Below the pieces are notes generated by a model, which saw only the letters and a program-made list of their open reading frames with translations, did not search any database and had not been told where the DNA came from. From the NCBI GenBank assembly GCA_903901875.1, contig CAIUSO010000002.1, positions 1-39,844 of the forward strand: a stretch of DNA of 39,844 nucleotides, given 5' to 3'. Made by a program: the position numbers and the translations under genes. Positions 6,908 through 39,844 of this stretch are shown here, in pieces; position 1 is the first letter of the stretch; every line of letters starts with the position of its first letter. This DNA comes from an uncultured Geobacteraceae bacterium. Its GTDB lineage: Bacteria; Desulfobacterota; Desulfuromonadia; Geobacterales; Pseudopelobacteraceae.

Positions 6908-8002
6908 ATGAAACAGAAAAATAGTCCGCCCCGTCTCCATCATCGAATTATTCAAAAACGCTCTGTCAAGACCGGGCTTCCTCCCGGTACCCTGGTTCAT
7001 ACCGGTGAACAGAATGACAGCCGGGTGGCCATTTCGGTCATCGGCTATGCCCCCGGTGGGGTGGTGGAACGTCAGTTTGATACGGTCGCCGAATATCTGG
7101 ATAATCCCTGTGAAAGCTCAGTGGTCTGGATAAACGTGGAAGGGGTACATGACATTGAGCTGATTCGTACCCTGGGTGAGCGTCACGGCTTTCACCCACT
7201 GGTTCTGGAAGATATTGTCAATACGGCACAACGCCCCAAAATTGAGGATTATGGAGATTATCTCTTTATTGTGCTGCGGATGCTCAAAACATCGGACTCC
7301 GATGAATTCAGTTCTGAACAGTTAAGTATTTTACTTGGACAGGGGTATGTTTTTACCTTCCAGGAAGGTGTGGCCGGGGATACACTTGAACCGGTGCGAA
7401 ACCGCATTCGGAACGGTAAGGGGAAAATACGGGGAATGGCTGCCGATTATCTGGCCTACGCCCTCATTGATGCTATTGTGGATGGCTATTTTTCCGTATT
7501 GGAGGATGTGGGGGAGCGGATTATTGATGTGGAAGAGGAACTGACCCTGCTTCCTGACCAGAAGGCACTCCATCGGATTATCTCCTTGAAAAAAGAGGTT
7601 ATCTATCTTCGTAAGAGTGTCTGGCCCCTCCGTGAATCGGTCTCGTTTCTGGAGCGGGGGGACAGCCATCTGCTTACTGAGTCAACACGTCTCTATTTCC
7701 GGGATGTCTATGACCATACCGTGCAAGTAATTGATACCGTAGAAACCTATCGTGATTTACTCTCAGGGATGCTTGATCTGTATCTTTCAAGCATCAGTAA
7801 CCGTACCAATGAGGTTATGAAGTTCCTTACGGTGATTGGTACGATCTTCATGCCGTTGACTTTTCTGGTGGGGGTCTATGGTATGAATTTTAAATATTTT
7901 CCTGAGTTGGAATGGCATAACGGCTATTTTATTCTGTGGGGCGCCATGATTTCCATGGCTCTGTTGATGGCCTTTTATTTCAGGAAAAAGAGGTGGTTAT
8001 GA
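6908..8002 (+). CDS. corA: Magnesium/cobalt transporter CorA
   Basis: CorA is a homopentameric inner-membrane channel for Mg2+ and Co2+. The 364-aa product has the long soluble N-terminal funnel (VVWINVEGVHDIELIRTLGERHGFHPLVLEDI), the stalk helix (DLYLSSISNRTNEVMKFLTVIGTIFMPLTFLVGVYGMNF) and two C-terminal transmembrane helices. The hallmark GMN motif sits in VGVYGMNFKYFPEL at the end of the first helix, and the chain ends with the positively charged RKKRWL, as usual. The start ATG 6908 follows pfkA by 13 bp; an upstream in-frame ATG at 6836 lies inside pfkA. The stop overlaps the next gene's ATG at 7999-8002. Confidence 0.95.
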   Translation: MKQKNSPPRLHHRIIQKRSVKTGLPPGTLVHTGEQNDSRVAISVIGYAPGGVVERQFDTVAEYLDNPCESSVVWINVEGVHDIELIRTLGERHGFHPLVLEDIVNTAQRPKIEDYGDYLFIVLRMLKTSDSDEFSSEQLSILLGQGYVFTFQEGVAGDTLEPVRNRIRNGKGKIRGMAADYLAYALIDAIVDGYFSVLEDVGERIIDVEEELTLLPDQKALHRIISLKKEVIYLRKSVWPLRESVSFLERGDSHLLTESTRLYFRDVYDHTVQVIDTVETYRDLLSGMLDLYLSSISNRTNEVMKFLTVIGTIFMPLTFLVGVYGMNFKYFPELEWHNGYFILWGAMISMALLMAFYFRKKRWL

Positions 8003-26377: not shown

Positions 26378-28456
26378 CTACGGACGTTCTGAAGCAGAGT
26401 ACCACGCGTTTGTGGTGCGGTTGTAAGCTTTCAGATACTGCAGACTGGTCGTTGCAGTTGCTGCGCTGGTGGCAGTAGAGATGTTGTAGATAGTCGGATT
26501 GTAAATTGCTGCACTGGCCGTAACCGACATATTCATTGCGCCATCATCAAGGAAGTCGATGGTGTCATAGAGCAGTCTGCGGACGTAAGTACGGGCGTGA
26601 ACGAATGCAGCAGGTTCACGGTGTACCAGATTGATGTTGAAGCAGGCACCAGCCAGTTTCTTGGCCTGAGCAGTTGTCAGGGCACCACCAAGGGTCCAGT
26701 CCGTGAAAGCCGTTGTCGTATTTGCAACATAGAAATACGGGTAGGCTGCATCGTTATAGTCGATATTATATTTGGTTTTCAGTAACGACAGAGCAAAGTT
26801 AACCGCATTGGTAAACGGCACGGACTGTTCTTCCACAAAGCCGGTTTTGATGGTGGTTGCAGTGGCTTCTGAGTAGTGGCAGTTGATGCAGGCTTTGTTG
26901 TAGGAGTCTGCATTGATTTCCCATGTGTGGTTTGCGTTGCCCATATGGCAGCTCAGGCATGGTCCACGGGTTGTCATGGTCAAAGAAGCGGTCTTGGCAC
27001 CGGAAGCATCGGTGTGTGTGTCAAACTTGATTGCGTCGGTACCGAGGATACGGTGGGTACTGGAAACGGCACCACCATCGGAGCTGGAGGTCAGTGTGTT
27101 GCCATAGGTGTACTGGTAGCCGTTCGGGATCGATGTGTACTTGCGGAATACGCCGTCAGCTGCAAAGAGCGGCACGCCTGCTGAAGCTGATGTTGAAGCG
27201 GATGCGTTGTTAACTTTAACCGGTGCAGATGCGCTGGTGAAAGCTGTGAAGCCGTTTTTCATGTACATGAGGCCGGCTGCAGCCATGTAGTGTGAATTGA
27301 AGGTGCCGAAGTTGGTGTTAGCAAGGTTGCCAGTGTAACCTTCAACAATTTTGCCGCTGTTCAGGCCGGAGTGGCAAGGAATGCAGACCTGCGAATTACC
27401 AATGAAGCCGCCGTTAGGGATAACGGTTGAAGCAACTGAAGAAGCGGTGTAAGGAACAGAATATCCGGTTGAAAGGGGACGGACACTGTTTTTGAAATCG
27501 TTGCTGCTGTGACAGGCGTCGCAGGTAAGAACCTGTTTGCCAAGAGTCGTTGTTGAAAGGGCTTTTTTGTCAGTGAAGTTATTGTTCACTGCTTTTGCAA
27601 AACCGGCTGATGTATGGCAAGAGTTGCAGGTATCGCGTGTGGTGAAGTCATAGTGTGACCAAGCCAGCCCTTTCAGTTTGGCGTGACCGGAGTCTTCCCA
27701 CTGTTCACGCTGAAGCTTGCCCGTACCTTCGATCGGGTTGTGTGGTTCATGGCAGGCAGAACAGTTGGTGCCGTTAAGGTTAAGGTAACGGGCAGCATTT
27801 GCTTCGCCGGCAGTCAGTGCGGAAGAACTTGTGTGCTTGAGGCTCAAAGAAGAACCGTGGCACTCAAAGCATCTGCCGCTGTCTGAAGGCTTGGGATCCT
27901 GGTGCTGTGTGCCGTGGCAGCCTGCGCAGCCGGGGAGTGAAGCACCATTTTTAGGAAGACCGGTCGTCCAGGAGTCGTTTGTGTAGTGACCGGACTGTTT
28001 GTAGCTGGCAAGCAGGTTCTGGCCGGTTATGTCACGGTAACTTTCGTGGCAGGACTGGCAGGGCTGGTTTTCGGCTTTGACAACAGGAGGGTTGGTAGTG
28101 ATGGTAAAGGTAGGATTGTTACCACTGACAATAGTTACGTTGCTTTGGTAGCCTTCATACGCGATTGAACCGTCTGCTTTCAATCCCTGGGCGGTAACGA
28201 TCAGATCGCTGCCGGGGTATACCTCAAGTGTACCACCGGAGTTACCTGCAAAATCATGCTTAGCAATGGGAATCAGCGGACCGGTAACAATCAGACGGGT
28301 TTTTGTAACATCGGCCGAAGATGCTACCACCTTCACTGTTACCTTACTGGTGCTCCCGTCGCCAATTGTGGCAACATTGCTCGCCCCGCAGCCATTCAGG
28401 GCAAGTAGCGCCAAGCCATACAACACATAGCGAGCTTTACTTACGTTGATACTCAT
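26378..28456 (-). CDS. Nine-haem c-type cytochrome lipoprotein
   Basis: A 692-aa exported multihaem cytochrome. The signal peptide ends in a lipobox (LALNGC, lipidated Cys23), so the protein should be membrane-anchored, possibly in the outer membrane. Nine CxxCH haem sites are seen between residues 133 and 527: CQSCH, CAGCH, CFECH, CSACH, CNSCH, CDACH, CIPCH, CLSCH and CINCH. Residues 30-125 form a haem-free beta domain (Ig or carboxypeptidase-regulatory type), and the last 165 residues are also haem-free. AGGAGA before ATG 28456 is a strong ribosome site. Such proteins carry electrons to metals, electrodes or partners in dissimilatory metal reducers (family knowledge); the acceptor here is unknown. 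It is monocistronic, with terminators downstream. Confidence 0.93.
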   Translation of the reverse strand: MSINVSKARYVLYGLALLALNGCGASNVATIGDGSTSKVTVKVVASSADVTKTRLIVTGPLIPIAKHDFAGNSGGTLEVYPGSDLIVTAQGLKADGSIAYEGYQSNVTIVSGNNPTFTITTNPPVVKAENQPCQSCHESYRDITGQNLLASYKQSGHYTNDSWTTGLPKNGASLPGCAGCHGTQHQDPKPSDSGRCFECHGSSLSLKHTSSSALTAGEANAARYLNLNGTNCSACHEPHNPIEGTGKLQREQWEDSGHAKLKGLAWSHYDFTTRDTCNSCHTSAGFAKAVNNNFTDKKALSTTTLGKQVLTCDACHSSNDFKNSVRPLSTGYSVPYTASSVASTVIPNGGFIGNSQVCIPCHSGLNSGKIVEGYTGNLANTNFGTFNSHYMAAAGLMYMKNGFTAFTSASAPVKVNNASASTSASAGVPLFAADGVFRKYTSIPNGYQYTYGNTLTSSSDGGAVSSTHRILGTDAIKFDTHTDASGAKTASLTMTTRGPCLSCHMGNANHTWEINADSYNKACINCHYSEATATTIKTGFVEEQSVPFTNAVNFALSLLKTKYNIDYNDAAYPYFYVANTTTAFTDWTLGGALTTAQAKKLAGACFNINLVHREPAAFVHARTYVRRLLYDTIDFLDDGAMNMSVTASAAIYNPTIYNISTATSAATATTSLQYLKAYNRTTNAWYSASERP

Positions 28457-28707: not shown

Positions 28708-28736
28708 TTGACACCACCGCACACCGGGTGTATTTT
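28708..28736 (+). promoter_or_regulatory. Promoter of the caspase-like gene cluster
   Basis: A consensus TTGACA (28708-28713), a 17-nt spacer and TATTTT (28731-28736) predict a start near 28743, about 125 nt before the first ATG. The rest of the 411-bp gap between the cytochrome and this cluster is AT-rich and shows no gene I can support. Confidence 0.5.
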
Positions 28737-28867: not shown

Positions 28868-30733
28868 ATGAAATTACTTCTCCTGCGATTGATATGTTTT
28901 GCGGGCACCCTCGTGTTTGCCCTTCCGATCCTTGCCAACGAAGTCGCCACAAATAGTAAAATCAGCAAAACCGTTGTCGAAAACGATCAAAGCGTCGTGG
29001 TGGTGGAAAAGGGGAGTGAAAGCCGTAAACGCATTGCCCTGGTAATCGGCAATGGTAATTACCGCTTTACTGACAGCCTGTCAAAACTGTCCAATCCGGG
29101 GCACGATGCCGAAGATATTGCCGTGGCCCTGCGCAGTTTTGGTTTTGAGGTCATGGAGAAGAACGACCAGACAAAAGAACAAATGGATGAGGCTATTACG
29201 GAATTTGGGCGCAGGATCAGCGGCAGCGAAGCGGCGTTATTTTATTTTGCCGGCCATGGCTTGCAAGTGAAAGGTCAAAACTACCTTATTCCTGTTGATG
29301 CCAGAATCGATTCCGATGCCCAGATCCCCTACAAAAGTATCAATGTAAATCAGATTCTTGATGAAATGGACAATGGGAAAAGTCAGGCCAATATCGTGAT
29401 GCTTGATGCCTGTCGTAACAACCCTATCAGCGGCAAATTCAGGTCTGGTTCGACGCGCGGACTGGCGGCCCCGGCAAGCACGCCCAAGGGGACGGTAATC
29501 GTGTATGCCACGGACCCGGGTAATGTGGCCGCCGATGGTAACGGCAGGAATGGCCTGTTTACGGCTGGACTGCTGCTTGCTTTCAAAGGGAATGACTTAA
29601 GCCTTGGCGGCGTCCTGGCGCGGGCGAGCGAAGAGGTGGAGCGGGGGAGCGAGCAGACGCAGACCCCCTATGTCAATGGGCCCGCTACCTTGCAGAAAAA
29701 TTTCCAATTTGCCGCCAACCCAGTTGCAAAGGGAGATGAGAAAGCGGCACCACAGCCGCCGGTGTATGTCAAGAGCAGTGAGGAAATTGAACGGGAAAGC
29801 TGGGAAAGTGCCAGTGCGAGTGCCAGTATCAATGCAATCGATGAATATCTCACGCAGTACCCCCAAGGACGTTTTACCGATCTGGCCAGAGCTGACTTTG
29901 CCCATTTGAAATCAGAAGCAGCCAAAGCAGCGATGAAGAGCGATTCAGCTGCCCGTAAGATCGCGGAAGCATTGTTGTGGGCAGAAGTGCAGAAGGGTGA
30001 CAGTCAAAGTGACTATGATGCTTATCTGGCTCAATTCCCTCATGGGGAGCATGCTGTGCAGGCTACAAGTCGCAGCAGCATATTGCATGAAGCGGCCACT
30101 TCAGCTGCCACTGATAAACGCAATAACGAAACTGCTGAATTTCGTACACAGCTTGAGGCGGCTGAAAAGGGCGATGTGGAAGCCATGAAGAAACTGGCCA
30201 ACTACTATGACGCCGGCTTCGGAGTGAAAAAAGATGCGTTGACCGCCACCGCCTGGCGGAATAAGGTTGAAGCGGCAGTAGCGCAACAGCAACTGCGAGC
30301 TGCCAACCAGGGAAATGTGGCCGCCATGCTCGATGTCGCTGAAAGATATGCTACCGGTTCAGGCATTGAAAAAGATCCGGCAAAAGCCACGTTGTGGCGT
30401 GCCGCTGCTGCCAGAGGTCAGGAAGTAGAAAAAAACAGGCAGTTGGCGGAATACAAAATCAAGAACTTTACCTATCTGGAAGATACCACACGCTTGATCA
30501 AGCAGAATGATGTGGACAGGAACCAAAGTTCGACGTGCATCACGAGTCTGCCGATTGTGGTTATAGTCGGTTTGGTTGAGGATGCTTTTTTTTCGCCGAC
30601 AAAGTCCTATGAATTGTCCGAGTTGAAAAAGGCGGTTGCCCTGCGTCCCGCCACATGGGGTAAGCCGGATTCCATGATCGCACGGGCTTCGAGACAGCTT
30701 GAGGCACGACAGTCCGCCTTTAACGATCAGTAA
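28868..30733 (+). CDS. Exported caspase-like (peptidase C14) protein with Sel1-like repeats, copy 1
   Basis: A 621-aa protein with an N-terminal signal peptide (LLLLRLICFAGTLVFALPILA) and a caspase p20-like domain at about 53-275. The domain opens with RIALVIGNGNY and holds the dyad: His130 in LFYFAGHGLQ and Cys182 in VMLDACRNNP. The middle (about 305-410) has TPR-like units ending in YLTQYPQGRF and YLAQFPHGEH. Two Sel1-like repeats follow (GDVEAMKKLANYYDAGFGVKKD, GNVAAMLDVAERYATGSGIEKD), then a hydrophobic stretch (557-576) and the tail ATWGKPDSMIAR (595-606). The family cleaves after basic or acidic residues depending on member; specificity here is unknown. AAAGG nine bases upstream supports the start. 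The next gene, 41 bp on, is a paralogue. Confidence 0.93.
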   Translation: MKLLLLRLICFAGTLVFALPILANEVATNSKISKTVVENDQSVVVVEKGSESRKRIALVIGNGNYRFTDSLSKLSNPGHDAEDIAVALRSFGFEVMEKNDQTKEQMDEAITEFGRRISGSEAALFYFAGHGLQVKGQNYLIPVDARIDSDAQIPYKSINVNQILDEMDNGKSQANIVMLDACRNNPISGKFRSGSTRGLAAPASTPKGTVIVYATDPGNVAADGNGRNGLFTAGLLLAFKGNDLSLGGVLARASEEVERGSEQTQTPYVNGPATLQKNFQFAANPVAKGDEKAAPQPPVYVKSSEEIERESWESASASASINAIDEYLTQYPQGRFTDLARADFAHLKSEAAKAAMKSDSAARKIAEALLWAEVQKGDSQSDYDAYLAQFPHGEHAVQATSRSSILHEAATSAATDKRNNETAEFRTQLEAAEKGDVEAMKKLANYYDAGFGVKKDALTATAWRNKVEAAVAQQQLRAANQGNVAAMLDVAERYATGSGIEKDPAKATLWRAAAARGQEVEKNRQLAEYKIKNFTYLEDTTRLIKQNDVDRNQSSTCITSLPIVVIVGLVEDAFFSPTKSYELSELKKAVALRPATWGKPDSMIARASRQLEARQSAFNDQ

Positions 30734-30774
30734 GGTTACGTCACTATTTCAGTAACAGTCCAGGAGCATTATCT

Positions 30775-32628
30775 ATGCGAAGTTGTACAACTGTTATCAT
30801 GATGTTCGTCCTATTAGTCACTGCTTCAGTTTGTGCCGCTACAGGGGAAGAGAAACAACCCTCTGTAGGTCGCGGATTGGTGGTGGCGGAAAAAAAAGGT
30901 GGCAACTTCGGCAAGCGCGTTGCGCTGGTAATCGGCAACGGTAATTACCGCCACTCTGACAGCCTCCCAACGCTGTCCAATCCTGCCCATGATGCCGAAG
31001 ATATTGCCGCTGCATTGCGCGGTTTCGGTTTTGAGGTCATGGAAAAGAAAAACATGACCAAAGAAGAAATGGATGAAACAATTGCTGAGTTTGGTCGTAA
31101 AATCATCGATAGCGAAGCGGCGTTATTTTATTTTGCCGGCCATGGCTTGCAAGTGAAAGGTCAAAACTACCTGATCCCGGTTGATGTTCGGATCGATTCC
31201 GATGCCCAGGTTCCCTACAAAAGTATCAATGTAAACCTGGTGCTTGATGAAATGGATACCGGGAAAAATCGTGCTAATATTGTCATGCTCGATGCCTGTC
31301 GGAACAATCCAATAAGCGGCAAGTTCAGGTCCGGTGCGACACGGGGGTTGGCTCCACCGGCAAACACGCCAAAAGGAACCATCATTGTCTATGCAACAGA
31401 TCCGGGCAATGTGGCTGCGGATGGGGATGGTCGTAACGGCCTTTTCACGTCCGGCCTGCTCCATGCGTTCAATGGGAACGATTTAAGTCTCGGCAGCGTC
31501 TTGGCGCGGGCAAGTGAAGAGGTGGAGCGTGGCAGTGGGCAGAAACAGACCCCCTATATCAATGGTCCGGCTTCCCTGCAGAAGAATTTCCAGTTTGCCG
31601 CCAATCGTGTGGTTGAAGACGTACTGACGGCGGCATATATCAAAAGCGGTGATGAAATTGAACAGGAAAGTTGGGAAAGTTCCCGGACTAACCCCACGAT
31701 CGCCGGCATCAGTGAGTATATGCGGCAATATCCGAAAGGGCGTTTTGCCGGCCAGGCAAAAATACTTCTTGTCACATTGAAAGACGCTGCCACCAAAGCA
31801 GAGAACCCTGTCGTAGATGAAGGTCCTGAACTTGCACTGTGGGACTCGGCGCAAAAACAGGATACTGTCTCAGAATATGAGGCGTTTCTTGCCGCGTACC
31901 CCAAAGGGAAACATAGTGTGTTGGCTAAGAGCCGCATTATTAAAATACAAGATAAAATGGCTGCTGAAGCAAGCACAAAACTTAAGAACGATGAGGATGA
32001 AGCCCGCTCGCAACTGGCTGTGGCAGAAAGTGGTGACATTGAAGCAATGAAAAAGGTGAGCCACTATTATGAAGCTGGTATTGGCTTTACGAAGGATGCT
32101 GTGCAAGCCGATACCTGGCGTAGTAAGGCAGAGACGGCGATAGCAAAGGAGCAGCTTCAGTTGGCCACTACCGGGGATATCGGTGCGATGCGTAGCCTGG
32201 CAACCAGCTATGACAACGGTCTTGGCGTTGCAAAAGATCGGGATCAGGCAAAGATGTGGAGGGAGAAAGCGGCCGAGGCGGCACGTAGGAAGGAGGCACA
32301 GGAACGGGCTCGAATCAAGGAAGAACGGATTAACAATATTTCTTTCCTGAGCCAAACCAAAGGTCTTTTTGAGGCGGGTAAGAAAGATGGTTTTAAAGGG
32401 ATTTTTTCGCTGGTGCTCCTTTCACCATTTTTTTTACCATTCTCTCTGGTGGCTGATGCTTCGGAAGCTCCCGGAAAATCAACTGATTTGAACAGAATAA
32501 AGAACGAGGCTTCCGTTCACCCCTCAACCTGGGGCAAGCCTGATTCCATGATCGCCCGTTTTGCAAGACAACAGATGGCCTCAAGCGCGGCTATGGAAGT
32601 AGCAGGAAGCGTCGTAACTGCCGAATGA
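30775..32628 (+). CDS. Exported caspase-like (peptidase C14) protein with Sel1-like repeats, copy 2
   Basis: A 617-aa paralogue of the preceding protein with the same architecture: signal peptide (TTVIMMFVLLVTASVCA), caspase domain with RVALVIGNGNY, His123 (YFAGHGLQ) and Cys175 (MLDACRNNP), TPR-like YMRQYPKGRF and YEAFLAAYPKGKH units, two Sel1-like repeats (SGDIEAMKKVSHYYEAGIG, TGDIGAMRSLATSYDNGLG), a charged coiled stretch (AAEAARRKEAQERARIKEER), a hydrophobic segment (542-561) and the tail STWGKPDSMIAR (584-595). Both catalytic residues are kept, so neither copy looks degenerate. The catalytic-His region shares 62 identical bases with copy 1. The stop overlaps the next start as ATGA, so the lipoprotein is coupled to it. 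Confidence 0.93.
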   Translation: MRSCTTVIMMFVLLVTASVCAATGEEKQPSVGRGLVVAEKKGGNFGKRVALVIGNGNYRHSDSLPTLSNPAHDAEDIAAALRGFGFEVMEKKNMTKEEMDETIAEFGRKIIDSEAALFYFAGHGLQVKGQNYLIPVDVRIDSDAQVPYKSINVNLVLDEMDTGKNRANIVMLDACRNNPISGKFRSGATRGLAPPANTPKGTIIVYATDPGNVAADGDGRNGLFTSGLLHAFNGNDLSLGSVLARASEEVERGSGQKQTPYINGPASLQKNFQFAANRVVEDVLTAAYIKSGDEIEQESWESSRTNPTIAGISEYMRQYPKGRFAGQAKILLVTLKDAATKAENPVVDEGPELALWDSAQKQDTVSEYEAFLAAYPKGKHSVLAKSRIIKIQDKMAAEASTKLKNDEDEARSQLAVAESGDIEAMKKVSHYYEAGIGFTKDAVQADTWRSKAETAIAKEQLQLATTGDIGAMRSLATSYDNGLGVAKDRDQAKMWREKAAEAARRKEAQERARIKEERINNISFLSQTKGLFEAGKKDGFKGIFSLVLLSPFFLPFSLVADASEAPGKSTDLNRIKNEASVHPSTWGKPDSMIARFARQQMASSAAMEVAGSVVTAE

Positions 32629-34163
32629 GCCGGTGTGCAATATTGCTGGTTGCAGCCCTGATTTGTGGCTGCATAACTACTTCACAACCAGCGGTCGTTG
32701 CCGTACCACTTTCTCAGTCGGGCCAGGGGGAGTTGCTACCTGCTGGCAATCAGGAGTTCTTAGTCGATAAGGAATTTGCTGCGCTGCATGATGTCGTAAA
32801 TGGTGCTGACAATCAGCTACAACAATCCTACACCCGCGCGTTGGACGATTACCTCAATCAGGCCGATTTCCCTTGTCAGCAGCCGATCTACGCGCGCTAT
32901 TTCGATCGTAAGTTTGCCGCCCATACTATGGAGCGGCAATGCCGTTCCAAAGTTCCCTTTTCCGTAATTACCCCATATGATGGTGCTCGGACAGTTTGGC
33001 TGGATCCAGAGCGTGTTTCGTCAATCCACCTCTTGTTTGCCAGTAAAAGTAAGAGTTTGGCTTCGCGCTTTGGCCATGTTGCCTTGAGGTTGGTGGTCTG
33101 TCCGGAAGGGGATAACAGTGTGGCTGCTTGTGATGCCAACCTTGAGGAGCATCTGGTGGTCGGGTTCCGGGCGCACATTGATGAATTTTCGCTGAACACA
33201 CTCAAAGCACTTTCCGGAGAGTATAAGGCATATCTTTTCACTAACCATTTTATGAACGTTTACGAAGAATACGCCATTGGTGAATTTCGCGAACTCTACT
33301 CACTGCCACTGCGCATGGAGGCGATACAACGTCAATTGCTGGTACGGGAGCTGGCCAATATTCACTGGGGCTATGGGGGAAGCTACCGTTTTTTTACGCG
33401 GAATTGCTCCACAATGATGCAGAATGCCTTACGGACAATCTGGCCCGCATTCGCGGACAACCGTTCAGTTAAGACTGACTTTATGCGCCCGGATAGCCTG
33501 TTCGAGGCGATCAGGTCCAGCACACTGGCTGAAGGGTTCCGACTTGACTCGCTGGATATTGCTGAGCGTGAGGGGTATTTCTTTTCCAGCACCAGACAGT
33601 TTTATGACAGTGCGCTCAAAGAGGTTAAGGAAGCCATGACAAGGCCGCTTTTTACCGATATTGACAGTTATATTCAAATAAACCCGATCAAACGCCGCGT
33701 GGAGCAGGTGGAAGATGCCCGGTTTCACCATCTGCTGGTTTCGGATCGGCACCTGCGGGAGGCGCAAATCATGCTGGAGGAGTATGCTGTCCTGCGCAGT
33801 GAGCGGATGATGCAGATTGAGGGGGCGCGATACTTTGAAGAACAAAACTTTCTGCCCAAGGCGGACGATATCCAGAGCCAGCTTGACACGGTGCACGCTA
33901 AAGTGTTTGACGATTGCCTGCTGTCTCCAATCAGGCAATACAGCTCTCCCCTTAAGCGATTAAAAGGGATACCGACGCTCGAGGAAATGCCGGCCGAGGC
34001 TGATCGGATATCCGGTTGTCAAACGACTCTGAGCAGGCAGTTGTTACATGAAGCTATAGTCTTGATCAAGAATGCAAAATCTGAACAATGGCAGCGGGTA
34101 AATGAAATATCCGGCTACTGGTCGGAGAGCATCGTAAATCTGGAGCTGCTGAAAAAACTGTGA
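32625..34163 (+). CDS. DUF4105 / Lnb N-terminal-type lipoprotein, probable cysteine-hydrolase-like fold
   Basis: A 512-aa protein with a lipoprotein-like signal (ILLVAALICGC, candidate lipidated Cys16). The region from about 115 to 290 resembles the DUF4105/Lnb N-terminal periplasmic domain: SSIHLLFASKSKSLASRFGHVALRL with His151, then LPLRMEAIQRQLLVRELANIHW and YRFFTRNCSTMMQNAL with Cys261. A His and a Cys in these conserved places suggest a cysteine-hydrolase-type site, which is inference. The C-terminal 200 residues are helical and charged, without a recognised domain. It starts at ATG 32625 overlapping the second caspase gene's stop and lies 300 bp before the giant adhesin, so a shared envelope role is likely. 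Confidence 0.82.
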   Translation: MSRCAILLVAALICGCITTSQPAVVAVPLSQSGQGELLPAGNQEFLVDKEFAALHDVVNGADNQLQQSYTRALDDYLNQADFPCQQPIYARYFDRKFAAHTMERQCRSKVPFSVITPYDGARTVWLDPERVSSIHLLFASKSKSLASRFGHVALRLVVCPEGDNSVAACDANLEEHLVVGFRAHIDEFSLNTLKALSGEYKAYLFTNHFMNVYEEYAIGEFRELYSLPLRMEAIQRQLLVRELANIHWGYGGSYRFFTRNCSTMMQNALRTIWPAFADNRSVKTDFMRPDSLFEAIRSSTLAEGFRLDSLDIAEREGYFFSSTRQFYDSALKEVKEAMTRPLFTDIDSYIQINPIKRRVEQVEDARFHHLLVSDRHLREAQIMLEEYAVLRSERMMQIEGARYFEEQNFLPKADDIQSQLDTVHAKVFDDCLLSPIRQYSSPLKRLKGIPTLEEMPAEADRISGCQTTLSRQLLHEAIVLIKNAKSEQWQRVNEISGYWSESIVNLELLKKL

Positions 34164-34329
34164 CCTCTACGCTCAATCCTACAAACTCCAATAGTTTTGA
34201 AAAACATTTTGGCAACAATTTCCGAATCCTTCCGCAGCTCCCCGTAATCCCACAAACCTTACCGTTATTCTGATTGTTTCATAAATTTAAAGTTATCAAT
34301 CAGCACTTACATACATTTGCCTACAGTAT

Positions 34330-34358
34330 ACGGCATATGTGCCATAAAAGTGTGCCGT
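34330..34358. promoter_or_regulatory. Inverted repeat next to the giant-gene promoter, possible operator
   Basis: ACGGCA (34330-34335) and TGCCGT (34353-34358) are perfect 6-bp arms around GGCATATGTGCC-like sequence, 6 bp upstream of the -35 box. A dimeric regulator could bind here. The rest of the 300-bp gap 34164-34463 is AT-rich with no supported gene. Confidence 0.35.
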
Positions 34359-34364
34359 TAAAAG

Positions 34365-34393
34365 TTGAAATAAAATTATTATTATTCTATAAT
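34365..34393 (+). promoter_or_regulatory. Near-consensus sigma70 promoter of the giant gene
   Basis: TTGAAA (34365-34370), exactly 17 nt of AT-only-like spacer, and a perfect TATAAT (34388-34393). The start should be near 34400, leaving a leader of about 64 nt with GGGAGA seven bases before the ATG. Confidence 0.8.
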
Positions 34394-34463
34394 GGGAAAT
34401 TAATTTAGAATAGACAAATTACGTTACGTGAACCATTATGATGAGTCAACGGGAGATACCTGC

Positions 34464-37400
34464 ATGAACCGAGCCTATCGACATATTTGGAGTGCCGTGA
34501 AGGGTGCATGGGTTGTAGCCGCCGAGATCGTTAAAAGCAAAGGGCGTGGAGGGGTAAGAATTGTTGCGCCCTCGACGACAGTATTACGTGCGATCGGCAG
34601 GTCAGGTTCTGATACTTCTCAGGGTGGGAGAGGTGGGGTGTCTGTGAGGGATTACTCCCGGAGCATGTCATCATTTCCACTCATCATGGCCTTGGAACCC
34701 CGTTTTATGTTTGATGCCGCCGTGGCGGCAACGTTGGATGCTGCCGTAGACAAACCAACTGATTTCGTGACTGATAAATCGGTTGCTGTCGGCCAGTCTG
34801 CAATTCCTGATATAAGCCTGATACTTGCTAAAGTAGTAAGTGCAACACCCTCAGATCAAGCTTCGGTGCCAATAGTGCCGATTAATCATGAGATTCTTTT
34901 TGTGGATCCAACGGTAGCTAATTATCAAGAACTAATTAAGGATATTCGCACAGATGTTGATGTTGTTATCCTGACATCAGGGCAGGATCCCTGGCAGCAA
35001 ATGGGAGAGACAATTTCTCATTATCAAAACATTACCGCTGTCCATCTGGTTTCCCATGGTGCTGTAGCAGAAATAATTATTGGTGATCATGGTTACCGGG
35101 TTGCTGACGTTCTCGCAGAGTCTACTCAGCTTGCATCCTGGCAATCCCACCTGGCACCCGGTGCCGACATTCTTCTCTATGGGTGTGATATTGGTGCGGG
35201 AAGTGAAGGTAAAACCCTCGTATCTACCCTGTCACAACTGACTCAGGCCGATGTGGCTGCTTCCGGCGACGCTACCGGTTCATCCCAACTTGGTGGAAAC
35301 TGGGTACTTGAGACGGTAACCGGTGATGTTACCAGTCGCAGTGCGTTTACCGATGCCGTGGCAAAGGATTACAATCAGTTGCTGGTGGCAGCACCTCAAA
35401 CGGTGGTGGTAACCACCGGTACCAATGTTGACACCACTTCGGCAACCACTGGTCTTGTGGGGGCTGGACGACTTATTACGTTTGATCCGGTGACAATTAC
35501 GACCGGTGCCACTTCTAACTTGATGGTTATCAAGGCCTATGACGTTGACTACGGGATGAAGGACTCTTCCGGTAACCCGTATGCTGTGGGCAATGCAGCC
35601 TCTGAATGGGATGGGGTGTATATCAAACTTGATGGTGCGGTGGATACCACCGCTAACTGGAAATTCGTCGGCTATCTGAGTGGTTTTAACAATACCTGGA
35701 ATACAACTACCTTTGATATTACCACTCAACTGACCGGTTTGGGTACGGCTGCCGGAGCAAGCGGTTCCTATGACATACGGGTTGTTCCCGATGATAACGG
35801 GACCCAGACCCAGGGTAATAATGCGGGACGTTGGGTTGTGGGAGTCTCGTCAGCGCAATTTATTATCGATGGTGGTAGCACTTCCCGGACGGCAACCCTG
35901 GCGACGCCGACCGAAAGTAATGCCACCGTTTCAGTGGCGGTAACTCCGACCACAACGGCAACTTACACGGTCCAATTCAATCTGCTTGACAGTACGGGGC
36001 ATTATGTTGCTGCCTATAGCGCAACAACGCCGATGACGTCCGGCAGTGCCACAACGGTTACCGGTTCCCTGCTTGCCAACACAACCCTCTATTCCAGCAC
36101 CGCTTTTTCCAACGTTCCATCGGGTACCTATACTCTGCAGGTCAACCTTCTTGACAGTAGCGGTGTCATTCAGGATACAAAGACAGTCACCAATCAGATC
36201 GTTATTTCTACTGCCGGTACCAGCGGCTCAACGTCCATTTATACCACGTCGAGCAACCGGATTATTATTGCGGGAAATACCTCGTGGACCGGGCTTTCAC
36301 TGAATGATATCAATCATGTGGCAACTACTGATACGACCCCGACGTTGACCGGTTATACGAACTCCAACGGAAGAACGGTTACGGTGTATGAAGGGAACAC
36401 GCTTGTCGGGACCGGTACCTCGGGAACCACAAAAATTACAGTAAACGGAAAAATTGTGGGTTATTTGTGGACAATTGACCTTTCAGCCCAGAGTGTCGGT
36501 ACCCACTCGTATATTGCCAAATATACCAGAAATTCTACCACCTATACTTCGGCAGCCTATGCCCTTACTATTGATGCACCAATAACGATCCCCCAGCCGG
36601 CCATAACAGCCCTGGACGCTACGGTGTCGAATCATCAGACTACCACCGCTACACCAACCCTGTCAGGAACTTCAGCACCACTTGCTACGATATATATTTA
36701 TGATAACGGCACCTTGATCGGTGCCACCACGGCGGGGAATGCCGGTGCCTGGACGTTTACCGAACCGGGGAATGCTCCGCTGGCCAATGGTACCCGAAAT
36801 TTTACGGTCAAGGATTATACCAATCAGGCAACCCTTGCGGCGCAGGCGACATCGGCGACATATTCGGTTACTATTGCCTCTACCGCTCCGACGATTTCGG
36901 TCAGTGGTATTCAAATTTCCAATGATACCGGTTCAAGTTCCAGCGATTTTATCACTGCAGCCCAACAGCAGAATATTTCGGCCGTCTTGAGTGGAGGTCT
37001 CGGTAGCAATACTCTGCTTGGTTCCCTCGATGGCGGTAAAACCTGGACCGATATTACCAGTACCGTGTCCGGCACATCTGTTAACTGGAGCAGTCAGTTG
37101 CTGCGGGGGGGCTATGCCGACCCGACCCAGTACGTGCCGTGGCAGATTCAGTTTAAGGTGAGTGATGGGGGAAATACTCCCCAATTCGGCTTGGTTGCTT
37201 CTCAGGATTATCGCTATATCGGCAATCTGGCGGACCCGGTCATTACCCGTACCGGGTGGGCCACCGCCAGTACGCCGACACTTTACGGAACCGCAGATGC
37301 CAACTCCATCGTCACTATCAAGAGTGGTACCTCAATTTTGGGCACGGCAACTCCTGATAGTCAGGGTAACTGGAGTTTTACTCCATCGGCACCCTTCGCC

Positions 37401-39844
37401 AATGGCAGTTATACGCTTTCCGTATCGGCCTCAGATCCTTATTCTGGTGCATCTTCAGCCCATTCGGCAAGTATCTCCCTCACAATTGATTCAGCGTTGC
37501 CTGTTATTAGCATCAACAGCATTTCAAATGATACCGGCACCAGCGGTGATTACATCACCTCTTCAGCAGCCCAGACAATAACGGGGACCCTTTCCAAGGC
37601 ATTGGTGACCGGTCAGACGTTATATGGTTCACTTGATGGGGGTATTTCATGGATAGATGTTGTCGCGAGTGGAGGCACCATAACCGGAAGCGGAACCACA
37701 AAGACTATAACCTGGGGAAGTAGAACTCTTGTTGGTAGCAACAGCATACAATTTCAGGTACGTACTGCCACATCGAAAGGTGCCATTGCATCAAAGGATT
37801 ATGTGCTGGATACGGTGGTTCCCATTCTGGTGACTTCGAGCAACGTTGCCACCTTTGACAGCAATGATCAAACAGTGACGCTGGTGTTTAATGAGACCGG
37901 TTCAGGTCTGGACTCCAACGCTATTCCCAATACGACTGCTTTTACCGTAAAAGATACGCAAGGGAGTACTATCAGCAGTGATGTAACCGCAGTAGCCATT
38001 GATCCATCTACAAATAGCATTATTCTCTCACTGTCTTCCGCAACTGTCGTTGGCAGTGTGACCTATACGAAACCTTCCAGTGGAACAGTGCTGCAAGATG
38101 TAGCGGGTAATGCGATTGCAACAATTTCCTCCAGGACGGTACTTGATGTCAGTGCCATTACGGCACCCCCCGGACAACCGGTGTTGACGCTGGTTGCTGG
38201 ATCAGATAGTGGGGTTGATATCACGGATTTGATAACTACGGTTAATACCCCCACCGTGCGTGTTGGACTTTCTTCTCCGACCAGCGGTGATGTTGTTGAT
38301 GTCTATGCCAATGGCGTGAGTGTGGGGCAAGCCATCTTAAACGCAACGAATGTCTCTAACGGGTTTGTCAACGTTACTCTTTCCAACTTGGGGAGTGATG
38401 GTTTCAAAAGTATTACTGCCACGGAAACCAACGCTGCCGGATTGGTTTCGACTGCATCAACTTCGCTGGATATGGTTCTGGACCGGACAGTCCCGGTTTT
38501 GGATACTGCTGCAGTCAGCAGTACGTCGTTGGTACTGTATATGAGTGAGTTTGGCTCTGGTTTAGCCAACATTACTCCGGCAACCGGTGATTTTACGGTT
38601 ACTCGAAACGGCAGTGCCACAATAGCCGTCAGTGCGGTGTCAGTTAATGTACTGGCAAATACCGTCACACTGACACTTGGTTCGGCTGTTACCAGTACCG
38701 ATGTCATTACATTCTCCTATACGTCCGGTGCATCGAATAAACTTCAGGATGTGGCAGGTAACAACTTTGCCAACATGAGTAATCAGGCGGTAATCAATAA
38801 AATTCCCACTTTTACTGAAGGTACCGGGTATGGCGTTCAGGGTGCTGCAGTAAGTGTTTTTAACGGCGAATCGATTGCCGCAGCGGTAAATAATGCATCA
38901 GTCACCGGGCTGACTTTTACTGTGGGGGGATTGATTGATGGCTCCTCTGAAACTATCAAGGTTGATGGGACTACTATTTCTTTAGGATCAAATAATTCAG
39001 GCACCACATCAAGTCATGCACTGAGCTATACCGTTACCACAGCTAGTGGAACTGCAACAGTAGTGCTTACAAGTTCCGGTGTGTCAGCAGCCATTATTGA
39101 TTCGATGATCAATAGTATGACGTATCAGAATACCAGTCTTGATAATCCGACAGCCGGTAACAGGACTTTTACATTGACGCAAGCAAATAGTGTAAGTCTC
39201 AGTATCGCTTCATCAGTGAATGTTGTGCCGGTTAATGATACACCGACGATTGTGGTGGCATCAACTACGGCCAGTGGCTCAATTACAGAGCTGGCCGGGG
39301 TCACCGGTTCGGGAACTTTTGATACTGCCAACGGCACTATCGCTTTCAGTGATGTGGATATCACTGATATTCATTCAGCCAGTTCCGTACTTAAAAGCTC
39401 GGTCTGGTCCGGTGGCACATTGAGCACGGACCAAGTTGCGGCTTTAAGTAATGCTTTTGTGCTGGGAGCGTTGAATGATACTACCGGTACGGGCATCGGT
39501 GGCACGCAGGTATGGAATTTTAGCGCGGCTGATGCCACGTTTGATTTCCTGGCATCGGGTCAGACTATCACGGCAATTTACACGGTATCTATAAGTGATG
39601 GAAATGGTGGCATGGTTGCAAAGGATGTCACGGTGACGATTACCGGCAGTAACGATGCCCCGGTGATCACGTCCAGTGCCACCCAATCGGTTAACGAAAA
39701 TAGTGCCTTGAACGTGGCACTTACCTCAACGGATGTTGATATGGTGGGTGCCAATCCAGCCACTTTCACCATCACCGGTGGCACTGATCAGGCCATGTTC
39801 AGCATCAACGGCTCCGGCAATCTGACTATGTTGGCCAAGAATTA
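34464..39844 (+). CDS. Giant DUF4347 surface protein/adhesin with Ig- and cadherin-like repeats, 3' end beyond window
   Basis: The frame from ATG 34464 stays open to the window edge: 1793 codons and no stop. N-terminus: an ESPR-like stretch (AYRHIWSAVKGAWVVAAE), without a clear hydrophobic signal core after it, then ALEPRFMFDAA at 77-87, the LEPR-type motif seen in giant type-I-secreted proteins. Residues about 142-285 are a DUF4347 domain: EILFVDPTVANYQELI, VHLVSHGA with His198, ILLYGCDIGAG with Cys241 and GGNWVLE. This His-Gly and Gly-Cys pairing resembles clan CD (caspase/gingipain-like) active sites. The remainder is Thr/Ser/Gly-rich beta repeats: Ig-like modules (two similar ones near residues 813 and 1014 with ISNDTG...LGSLDGG/LYGSLDGG), and cadherin/VCBS-like modules near the end (VNDTPTI, GSNDAPVITSSATQSVNENSA). 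GGGAGA upstream fixes the start. Secretion by a type I system is inferred; no secretion genes are in view. Confidence 0.9.
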   Translation, partial: MNRAYRHIWSAVKGAWVVAAEIVKSKGRGGVRIVAPSTTVLRAIGRSGSDTSQGGRGGVSVRDYSRSMSSFPLIMALEPRFMFDAAVAATLDAAVDKPTDFVTDKSVAVGQSAIPDISLILAKVVSATPSDQASVPIVPINHEILFVDPTVANYQELIKDIRTDVDVVILTSGQDPWQQMGETISHYQNITAVHLVSHGAVAEIIIGDHGYRVADVLAESTQLASWQSHLAPGADILLYGCDIGAGSEGKTLVSTLSQLTQADVAASGDATGSSQLGGNWVLETVTGDVTSRSAFTDAVAKDYNQLLVAAPQTVVVTTGTNVDTTSATTGLVGAGRLITFDPVTITTGATSNLMVIKAYDVDYGMKDSSGNPYAVGNAASEWDGVYIKLDGAVDTTANWKFVGYLSGFNNTWNTTTFDITTQLTGLGTAAGASGSYDIRVVPDDNGTQTQGNNAGRWVVGVSSAQFIIDGGSTSRTATLATPTESNATVSVAVTPTTTATYTVQFNLLDSTGHYVAAYSATTPMTSGSATTVTGSLLANTTLYSSTAFSNVPSGTYTLQVNLLDSSGVIQDTKTVTNQIVISTAGTSGSTSIYTTSSNRIIIAGNTSWTGLSLNDINHVATTDTTPTLTGYTNSNGRTVTVYEGNTLVGTGTSGTTKITVNGKIVGYLWTIDLSAQSVGTHSYIAKYTRNSTTYTSAAYALTIDAPITIPQPAITALDATVSNHQTTTATPTLSGTSAPLATIYIYDNGTLIGATTAGNAGAWTFTEPGNAPLANGTRNFTVKDYTNQATLAAQATSATYSVTIASTAPTISVSGIQISNDTGSSSSDFITAAQQQNISAVLSGGLGSNTLLGSLDGGKTWTDITSTVSGTSVNWSSQLLRGGYADPTQYVPWQIQFKVSDGGNTPQFGLVASQDYRYIGNLADPVITRTGWATASTPTLYGTADANSIVTIKSGTSILGTATPDSQGNWSFTPSAPFANGSYTLSVSASDPYSGASSAHSASISLTIDSALPVISINSISNDTGTSGDYITSSAAQTITGTLSKALVTGQTLYGSLDGGISWIDVVASGGTITGSGTTKTITWGSRTLVGSNSIQFQVRTATSKGAIASKDYVLDTVVPILVTSSNVATFDSNDQTVTLVFNETGSGLDSNAIPNTTAFTVKDTQGSTISSDVTAVAIDPSTNSIILSLSSATVVGSVTYTKPSSGTVLQDVAGNAIATISSRTVLDVSAITAPPGQPVLTLVAGSDSGVDITDLITTVNTPTVRVGLSSPTSGDVVDVYANGVSVGQAILNATNVSNGFVNVTLSNLGSDGFKSITATETNAAGLVSTASTSLDMVLDRTVPVLDTAAVSSTSLVLYMSEFGSGLANITPATGDFTVTRNGSATIAVSAVSVNVLANTVTLTLGSAVTSTDVITFSYTSGASNKLQDVAGNNFANMSNQAVINKIPTFTEGTGYGVQGAAVSVFNGESIAAAVNNASVTGLTFTVGGLIDGSSETIKVDGTTISLGSNNSGTTSSHALSYTVTTASGTATVVLTSSGVSAAIIDSMINSMTYQNTSLDNPTAGNRTFTLTQANSVSLSIASSVNVVPVNDTPTIVVASTTASGSITELAGVTGSGTFDTANGTIAFSDVDITDIHSASSVLKSSVWSGGTLSTDQVAALSNAFVLGALNDTTGTGIGGTQVWNFSAADATFDFLASGQTITAIYTVSISDGNGGMVAKDVTVTITGSNDAPVITSSATQSVNENSALNVALTSTDVDMVGANPATFTITGGTDQAMFSINGSGNLTMLAKN

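Follow-up and report, generated by a model that had tools for sequence, protein, structure and literature searches.

The conserved relation at this locus is between a Sel1-like-repeat protein with a common C-terminal tail and the product of the adjoining gene, C, a probable Lnb-like lipoprotein; it is probably not a relation between caspases and an adhesin, as had been proposed from the DNA of this stretch. We analysed one entire contig of 39,844 bases (hereafter the window) from a 4.3 Mb draft genome, in which the tail protein occurs twice, as A and B, each time with a caspase domain as its N-terminal head, and found that in most related loci this head is of PEGA type. To our knowledge, the role of bacterial caspase homologs outside the cytoplasm is largely unknown. 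At this locus such a probably exported caspase has a constant partner in the Lnb-like lipoprotein, and operons bearing a PEGA-type head instead offer a natural control, which makes the roles of exported caspases and of DUF4105 proteins outside Bacteroides directly testable; it also removes a misleading caspase-adhesin link. Sel1-bearing bacterial metacaspases and Lnb are already known, while the literature searched showed neither the tail module nor a pairing of it with C nor an exchange of heads; the tail-C unit is not described there, including the portions of PMC12994826, PMC3501461, PMC12345273 and PMC10318531 that were available to us.

Results and Discussion

The A-B-C gene unit

The four open reading frames, A to D, lie at the positions and on the forward strand given for them in the sequence-only reading, which had also correctly grouped the first three as a compact unit: 41 nt separate A from B, and B overlaps C by 4 nt. 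Gene A (28868..30733) encodes a signal-like N-terminus, a caspase head (PF00656, 29027..29680), a linker, Sel1-like repeats and an alpha-type tail (30395..30730) in which a hydrophobic stretch is followed by a WGKPDSM motif. Gene B (30775..32628) has the same succession of parts, with its caspase domain at 30913..31566 and a beta-type tail at 32257..32622. Gene C (32625..34163) encodes a probable lipoprotein with an Lnb_N-like domain (PF13387, the old DUF4105, at 33000..33461). Gene D (34464..39842) encodes an ESPR, a DUF4347 domain and Ig-like repeats, and is probably outside the unit. The Pfam families found in A to D at E-values up to 0.01 were Peptidase_C14, Sel1, YfiO, Peptidase_C25, Lnb_N, DUF4347, ESPR and Ig-/cadherin-like repeats. 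A promoter-like site upstream of A (28708..28736, forward strand) is a consensus match only (10/12). A terminator-like hairpin followed by eight T lies at 32411-32427, within the tail region of B and just 5' of C; it may reflect attenuation or chance, there being nine such features in the stretch compared with 7.3 expected.

The tail protein and C occur together

The searches made here yielded nine C loci. These are the window, L036 (genome G015), L037 (G069), L056 (G115, which belongs to another family of the same order), L058 (Photobacterium lipolyticum), L059 (a Deltaproteobacteria MAG), L060 (a Psychromonas MAG), and L068 and L069, from two genomes of the Photobacterium family. Gene C is thus rare: strong matches occur in four of 141 order genomes (ten at E-values up to 0.001, the other six at ~20 bits, where larger Lnb_N-type frames lie), in three of 296 genomes drawn from the Photobacterium family, and in one of 395 drawn from the phylum, that one being the window genome itself. 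A search with the tail alone (A5) matched four of the 141 order genomes, identical to the four with strong C matches, and strong matches to tail and C coincide also in three of the 76 family genomes. Treating the genomes as independent, a hand calculation (141 choose 4) puts the odds of so exact a match at 1 in 15.8 million; this is an indication only, as the genomes are not independent and both A5 and the tail models were built from genomes that were counted.

A Sel1-like-repeat protein with the common tail directly adjoins C in eight of the nine loci. In eight of nine (the remnant in L068 included) the start of C lies 1–4 nt inside the partner frame, while in L069 a gap of 13 nt separates them. 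At L068 an intact C stands beside a degenerate partner of 108 residues (7070-7396, reverse strand) with a partial PEGA-type head and no tail. The tail itself has a moderately hydrophobic stretch (best 18-residue mean hydropathy 1.07 to 2.19 in 11 proteins) ahead of a W[GA]KP[DN]SM-type motif, which is not strict, reading WAKSDS in the second G115 protein (G115_2) and WAEPDSL in that of G069. Five of the nine loci also encode, 3' of C, a coiled-coil-like protein whose start is signal-like; its gene was not found in the window or G115, the two caspase loci, nor in L060 or L068. Located 3' of the G115 caspase locus (L056, 12429-14793) are a protein with, by eye, the same linker motif as A and B, and a DUF4384 protein.

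Gene C resembles the lipoprotein acyltransferase Lnb

The sequence-only reading had named C a probable His/Cys hydrolase and lipoprotein, and in our searches C does look like a His/Cys lipoprotein enzyme, in which the proposed pair, His151 and Cys261, is present. Pfam assigned it PF13387 Lnb_N at 59.8 bits (cut-off 22.2), a weaker score than the 183–198 bits of the 12 strongest Lnb_N places in the family. H151 and C261 are kept in all seven aligned C orthologs (alignment A6), and in a profile comparison they aligned with the His and Cys of Lnb_N proteins (probability 92.5, E-value 4.8e-7); the comparison set was of 16 plus-strand open reading frames from 24 loci (L011-L034; printed representative L012), three of which (L018, L023 and L025, from minus-strand matches) are probably wrong frames. 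By eye, the hydrophobic start of C closes with Gly-Cys in the fashion of a lipoprotein, and a Cys is found at this position in seven of the eight other orthologs, the G069 ortholog having no lipobox-like Cys. Past residue 70 we detected no strongly hydrophobic stretch (best 18-residue mean hydropathy 0.94).

The excerpts of PMC12994826 available to us describe DUF4105 as a permuted NlpC/P60 family whose sister is the phospholipase toxin Tox-Act1, with Lnb, the Bacteroides lipoprotein N-acyltransferase, among its members; an earlier classification had DUF4105 as papain-like, with a guessed role in supporting resistance transporters or translocation (PMC10318531, in part). The likeness of C to Lnb consists in the PF13387 match over the cut-off, and the His/Cys alignment is to Lnb_N proteins of the same bacterial family rather than to the Bacteroides enzyme itself. 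C differs from Lnb in its weaker domain match and lipoprotein-like start, and it shows no membrane-spanning part beyond the N-terminal domain, a part we attribute to Lnb from the Pfam name.

Other searches with C gave little. There was no NCBIfam match at E-values up to 0.01, related solved structures were matched at chance level only, and the predicted structure (mean pLDDT 47.8) was too poor to use. A pattern scan of genomes with C alone gave 23 matches, none a relative; repeated with alignment A4 it found five loci, two of which, L057 and L061, are the same as L036 and L037. We also considered a phage or plasmid origin for C and rejected it, as no relative was identified in viral_contigs (one scan) or in plasmids. 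A general linkage of caspases with Lnb_N proteins in the family was likewise rejected: only one of 26 Lnb_N places, the window, has a caspase within 5 kb, distances being compared by hand. At G029:C53 a caspase lies ~10 kb from a large Lnb_N protein.

The caspase heads of A and B

The His/Cys pairs proposed for the two caspases, His130/Cys182 in A and His123/Cys175 in B, were confirmed in the translations, and PF00656 scored 134.1 and 132.3 bits, respectively, far over the cut-off of 21.4; the Sel1 repeats of both proteins score under theirs. The proposal that A and B are exported likewise found support, since each has a hydrophobic, signal-like N-terminal stretch when read by eye. The head sequences are 84% identical within the window genome and 99% identical within G115, and 78–79% identical between the two genomes. 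In all four of these caspases the dyad is intact, as are two Asp residues (D80 and D180 in A, D73 and D173 in B) that are candidates for S1-type residues. The best solved match to B was the MALT1 paracaspase, in which the His, the Cys and both Asp have counterparts; the aligned Asp are, we take it, D365 and D462 of the S1 pocket, which presumably confer specificity for Arg. From this alignment the heads of A and B are predicted to cut after Arg or Lys.

We also considered whether the heads could be pseudo-enzymes with a structural role, binding ligands and no more, as a PEGA domain would. PEGA domains are not known to be enzymes, and the exchange of caspase heads with PEGA-type domains described below would suit such a role; the intact dyad and candidate S1-type Asp in four of four proteins speak against it, and we consider it quite improbable.

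A and B share with metacaspases and paracaspases the PF00656 domain, the intact His/Cys, the N-terminal hydrophobic signal and the Sel1 repeats. In the available portion of a 2012 survey of bacterial metacaspases (PMC3501461), Sel1 ranks within the top four partner domains, occurring in 40 of 671 sequences, some Sel1-bearing members have N-terminal helices that may be signal peptides, and location could not be assigned for 529 of the 671. Unlike the metacaspases described in that portion of the survey, A and B have the tail module, the pairing with C and the exchange of heads with PEGA.

Other family-level matches were poor. To the EACC1-associated caspase model (NF047832) A and B scored 68.2 and 67.9 bits, under the NCBIfam cut-off of 140. 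PADLOC, used to look for known anti-phage caspase systems, gave weak caspase matches of 40.1 and 38.5 bits to part of a 453-position model and weak PtuA matches in the Sel1 regions (E-values 4.3e-6 and 0.0027), and no match to C. In the predicted structure of B the Sel1 region is confident and the caspase region poor.

These matches bear on a reading in which C hydrolyses lipids or peptidoglycan and the locus serves for self-lysis or competition, with the caspases activating C, in effect an exported counterpart of caspase-gated killing. It would fit the sister relation of DUF4105 to Tox-Act1 noted above (PMC12994826, in part), and also the position of a caspase whose tail has a hydrophobic stretch next to an enzyme that is probably membrane-anchored. 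However, no toxin-delivery or immunity family was identified among the genes individually scanned with Pfam, the PADLOC matches are weak, and the PEGA versions of the locus are without a protease, and we judge this reading to be distinctly unlikely.

The nearest other Geobacteraceae caspases that we compared differ from A and B in having a C-terminal part that by eye is FGE-sulfatase-like; their heads are 70–75% identical to A/B-type heads, and such fusions are a possible source of the caspase head. In the same family, signal-like caspases with C-termini of this kind were seen, again by eye, in L070 (10476-12413, reverse strand), L072 (6477-8144) and L073 (2076-4049, reverse strand), and L070 has four Pfam caspase domains, plus a fifth weak one detected with a profile made here, within 16 kb.

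Exchange of heads between diverged tails

The head of the tail protein is of PEGA type in five loci (six genes; L036, L037, L058, L059 and L069) and a caspase in the window and G115 (four genes), so that just two loci are known to have the caspase version; L060 has no head, and L068 retains a remnant. Pfam searches of four of the PEGA-type proteins placed one over the PEGA cut-off and two under it and gave no match for the fourth, and a profile built from five of the heads links all six.

Three genomes, those of the window, G115 and G015, have two tail genes. In each there is one alpha tail (A, G115_2 and G015_2) and one beta tail (B, G115_1 and G015_1), and in each both tails bear the same kind of head. 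The alpha/beta split has 98% ultrafast bootstrap support in a six-sequence tail tree built on roughly 100 columns. With all tails included, beta forms a group at 85% and alpha does not form a clade; with the Sel1 repeats added to the tail, the split is not recovered, and the G015 pair comes out together at 30%.

The G115 pair shows a sharp contrast along its length. In blocks of 30 codons its DNA identity is 98–100% over codons 31–330, 74–98% over codons 331–450 and 28–65% over the remainder, and third positions agree at 0.93–1.00 over codons 31–330 versus 0.10–0.37 over the last ~117 codons. From this contrast between head and tail we infer a recent recombination in G115 that copied the head from one long-standing tail to the other. 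For the window pair the contrast is weaker (64–90% in caspase-domain blocks and 39–63% in the last 96 codons; third positions 0.37–0.80 over the caspase domain versus 0.00–0.47 in the tail); the same copying of heads is plausible there, and stronger selection on the caspase may account for some of the pattern. The gene order is alpha-beta-C in the window versus beta-C-alpha in G115; the parts therefore recur and are not merely one inherited arrangement. Taken on these sequence comparisons, the head appears to move as a cassette.

Proposed role of the unit

Building on the gene unit, the co-occurrence, the swap of heads and the conserved residues, we tentatively favour a reading, the leading one here although we give it somewhat less than even odds, in which A, B and C form an envelope complex, and swappable caspase heads, paired on tails that assemble with C, probably control an Lnb-like enzyme. 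The unit would be periplasmic or at the outer membrane, and its constant core would be the Sel1-repeat tail protein made together with C, the latter a putative membrane-anchored Lnb-like His/Cys enzyme probably acting on lipids or lipoproteins. The Sel1 protein would bear an interchangeable N-terminal head, mostly of PEGA type and a caspase here and in G115, and its hydrophobic tail stretch may touch the membrane. Because both tail types carry the same kind of head in a given genome, we infer that alpha and beta tails assemble with C as a heteromer, which would keep two caspase heads near each other. Proximity might activate heads paired in this way, which would then cleave C or another envelope protein close by and so switch the activity of C. 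A narrower proposal is unlikely as it stands: exported paracaspase-like heads, a cassette carried by recombination between the two diverged tails, would act as the protease that switches an Lnb-type acyltransferase or lipase anchored as a lipoprotein; if true, it would put lipoprotein or membrane-lipid modification under caspase control outside the cytoplasm.

Another account would make the tail a mere envelope anchor, with the caspases acting on unrelated exported proteins and C independent and only co-expressed. The signal-like caspases of the family with other, FGE-sulfatase-like C-termini (by eye) favour it, as do the PEGA-type heads in relatives, which imply that C needs no caspase. On the other hand, the occurrence of tail and C in the identical four of 141 genomes and their overlapping frames point to a joint function, and we regard this account as rather unlikely, though one to be kept in mind beside the envelope complex that we favour.

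The DUF4347 gene is probably only a neighbour

The giant DUF4347 gene reported 3' of C is present (PF14252 at 173.6 bits, cut-off 24.6, plus an ESPR), though incomplete, as the contig ends inside it. The residues reported for it as His198 and Cys241 hold when counted from the ATG at 34464; counted from a GTG at 34428 they become His210 and Cys253. The site TTGAAA-17-TATAAT between C and D (34365..34393, forward strand) matches the promoter consensus at 11/12, the strongest of the ten promoter-like sites found in the stretch, where shuffles gave 6.6 (sd 2.2), and it too is a consensus match only. Because D has this promoter-like site of its own, it is probably a separate unit.

The sequence-only reading had the two caspases processing, anchoring or releasing this giant protein, in the manner of Lap control with other proteases, and had proposed co-occurrence in other genomes as a check. 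Across the 76 family genomes, 40 have caspase domains, 22 have Lnb_N (26 matches) and 20 have DUF4347 (31 matches); just one of these 31 DUF4347 places, the window, has a caspase or Lnb_N within 20 kb, with positions on contigs compared by hand and many contigs short (the two other DUF4347 genes of the window genome sit on contigs of 4.0 and 6.6 kb, their neighbours out of view). Searches of six other genomes with C loci identified no DUF4347 in four and placed it on a different contig in two. The window is the only one of the nine C loci in which DUF4347 adjoins C, a count resting on searches for six of the eight others and on reading of open reading frames alone for L068 and L069. Adjacency and shared direction of D with A-B-C in the window, both sides looking exported, would favour such a role, and action at a distance is conceivable in the two genomes that have DUF4347 elsewhere; but given how rarely the genes lie together, the four genomes that lack DUF4347 and the promoter-like site of D, the idea has a very slight chance of being right, and the adhesin link did not survive the sampling. 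D is probably a neighbour and not part of the unit. Only in outline does the arrangement resemble the Lap system (LapA/LapG/LapD), in that cysteine proteases lie close to a giant repeat protein; unlike Lap, A to D gave no match to a protease of LapG type or a receptor of LapD type at E-values up to 0.01, and adhesin and proteases do not travel together.

The DUF4347 domain of D has features of its own. Its His (in SHG) and Cys (in YGC) are invariant in five aligned members, the pattern being found in five of six loci and not in L064, and it has a weak match to PDB chain 9qpe_G, itself named DUF4347 (E-values of 0.017 for the sequence and 0.076 for the stretch). Perhaps this domain belongs to the caspase clan and is carried by an ESPR-bearing exoprotein. 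On the reverse strand of the window, a gene at 26378-28456 encodes a multihaem c-type cytochrome whose start is lipoprotein-like and which matches an MtrC/MtrF domain.
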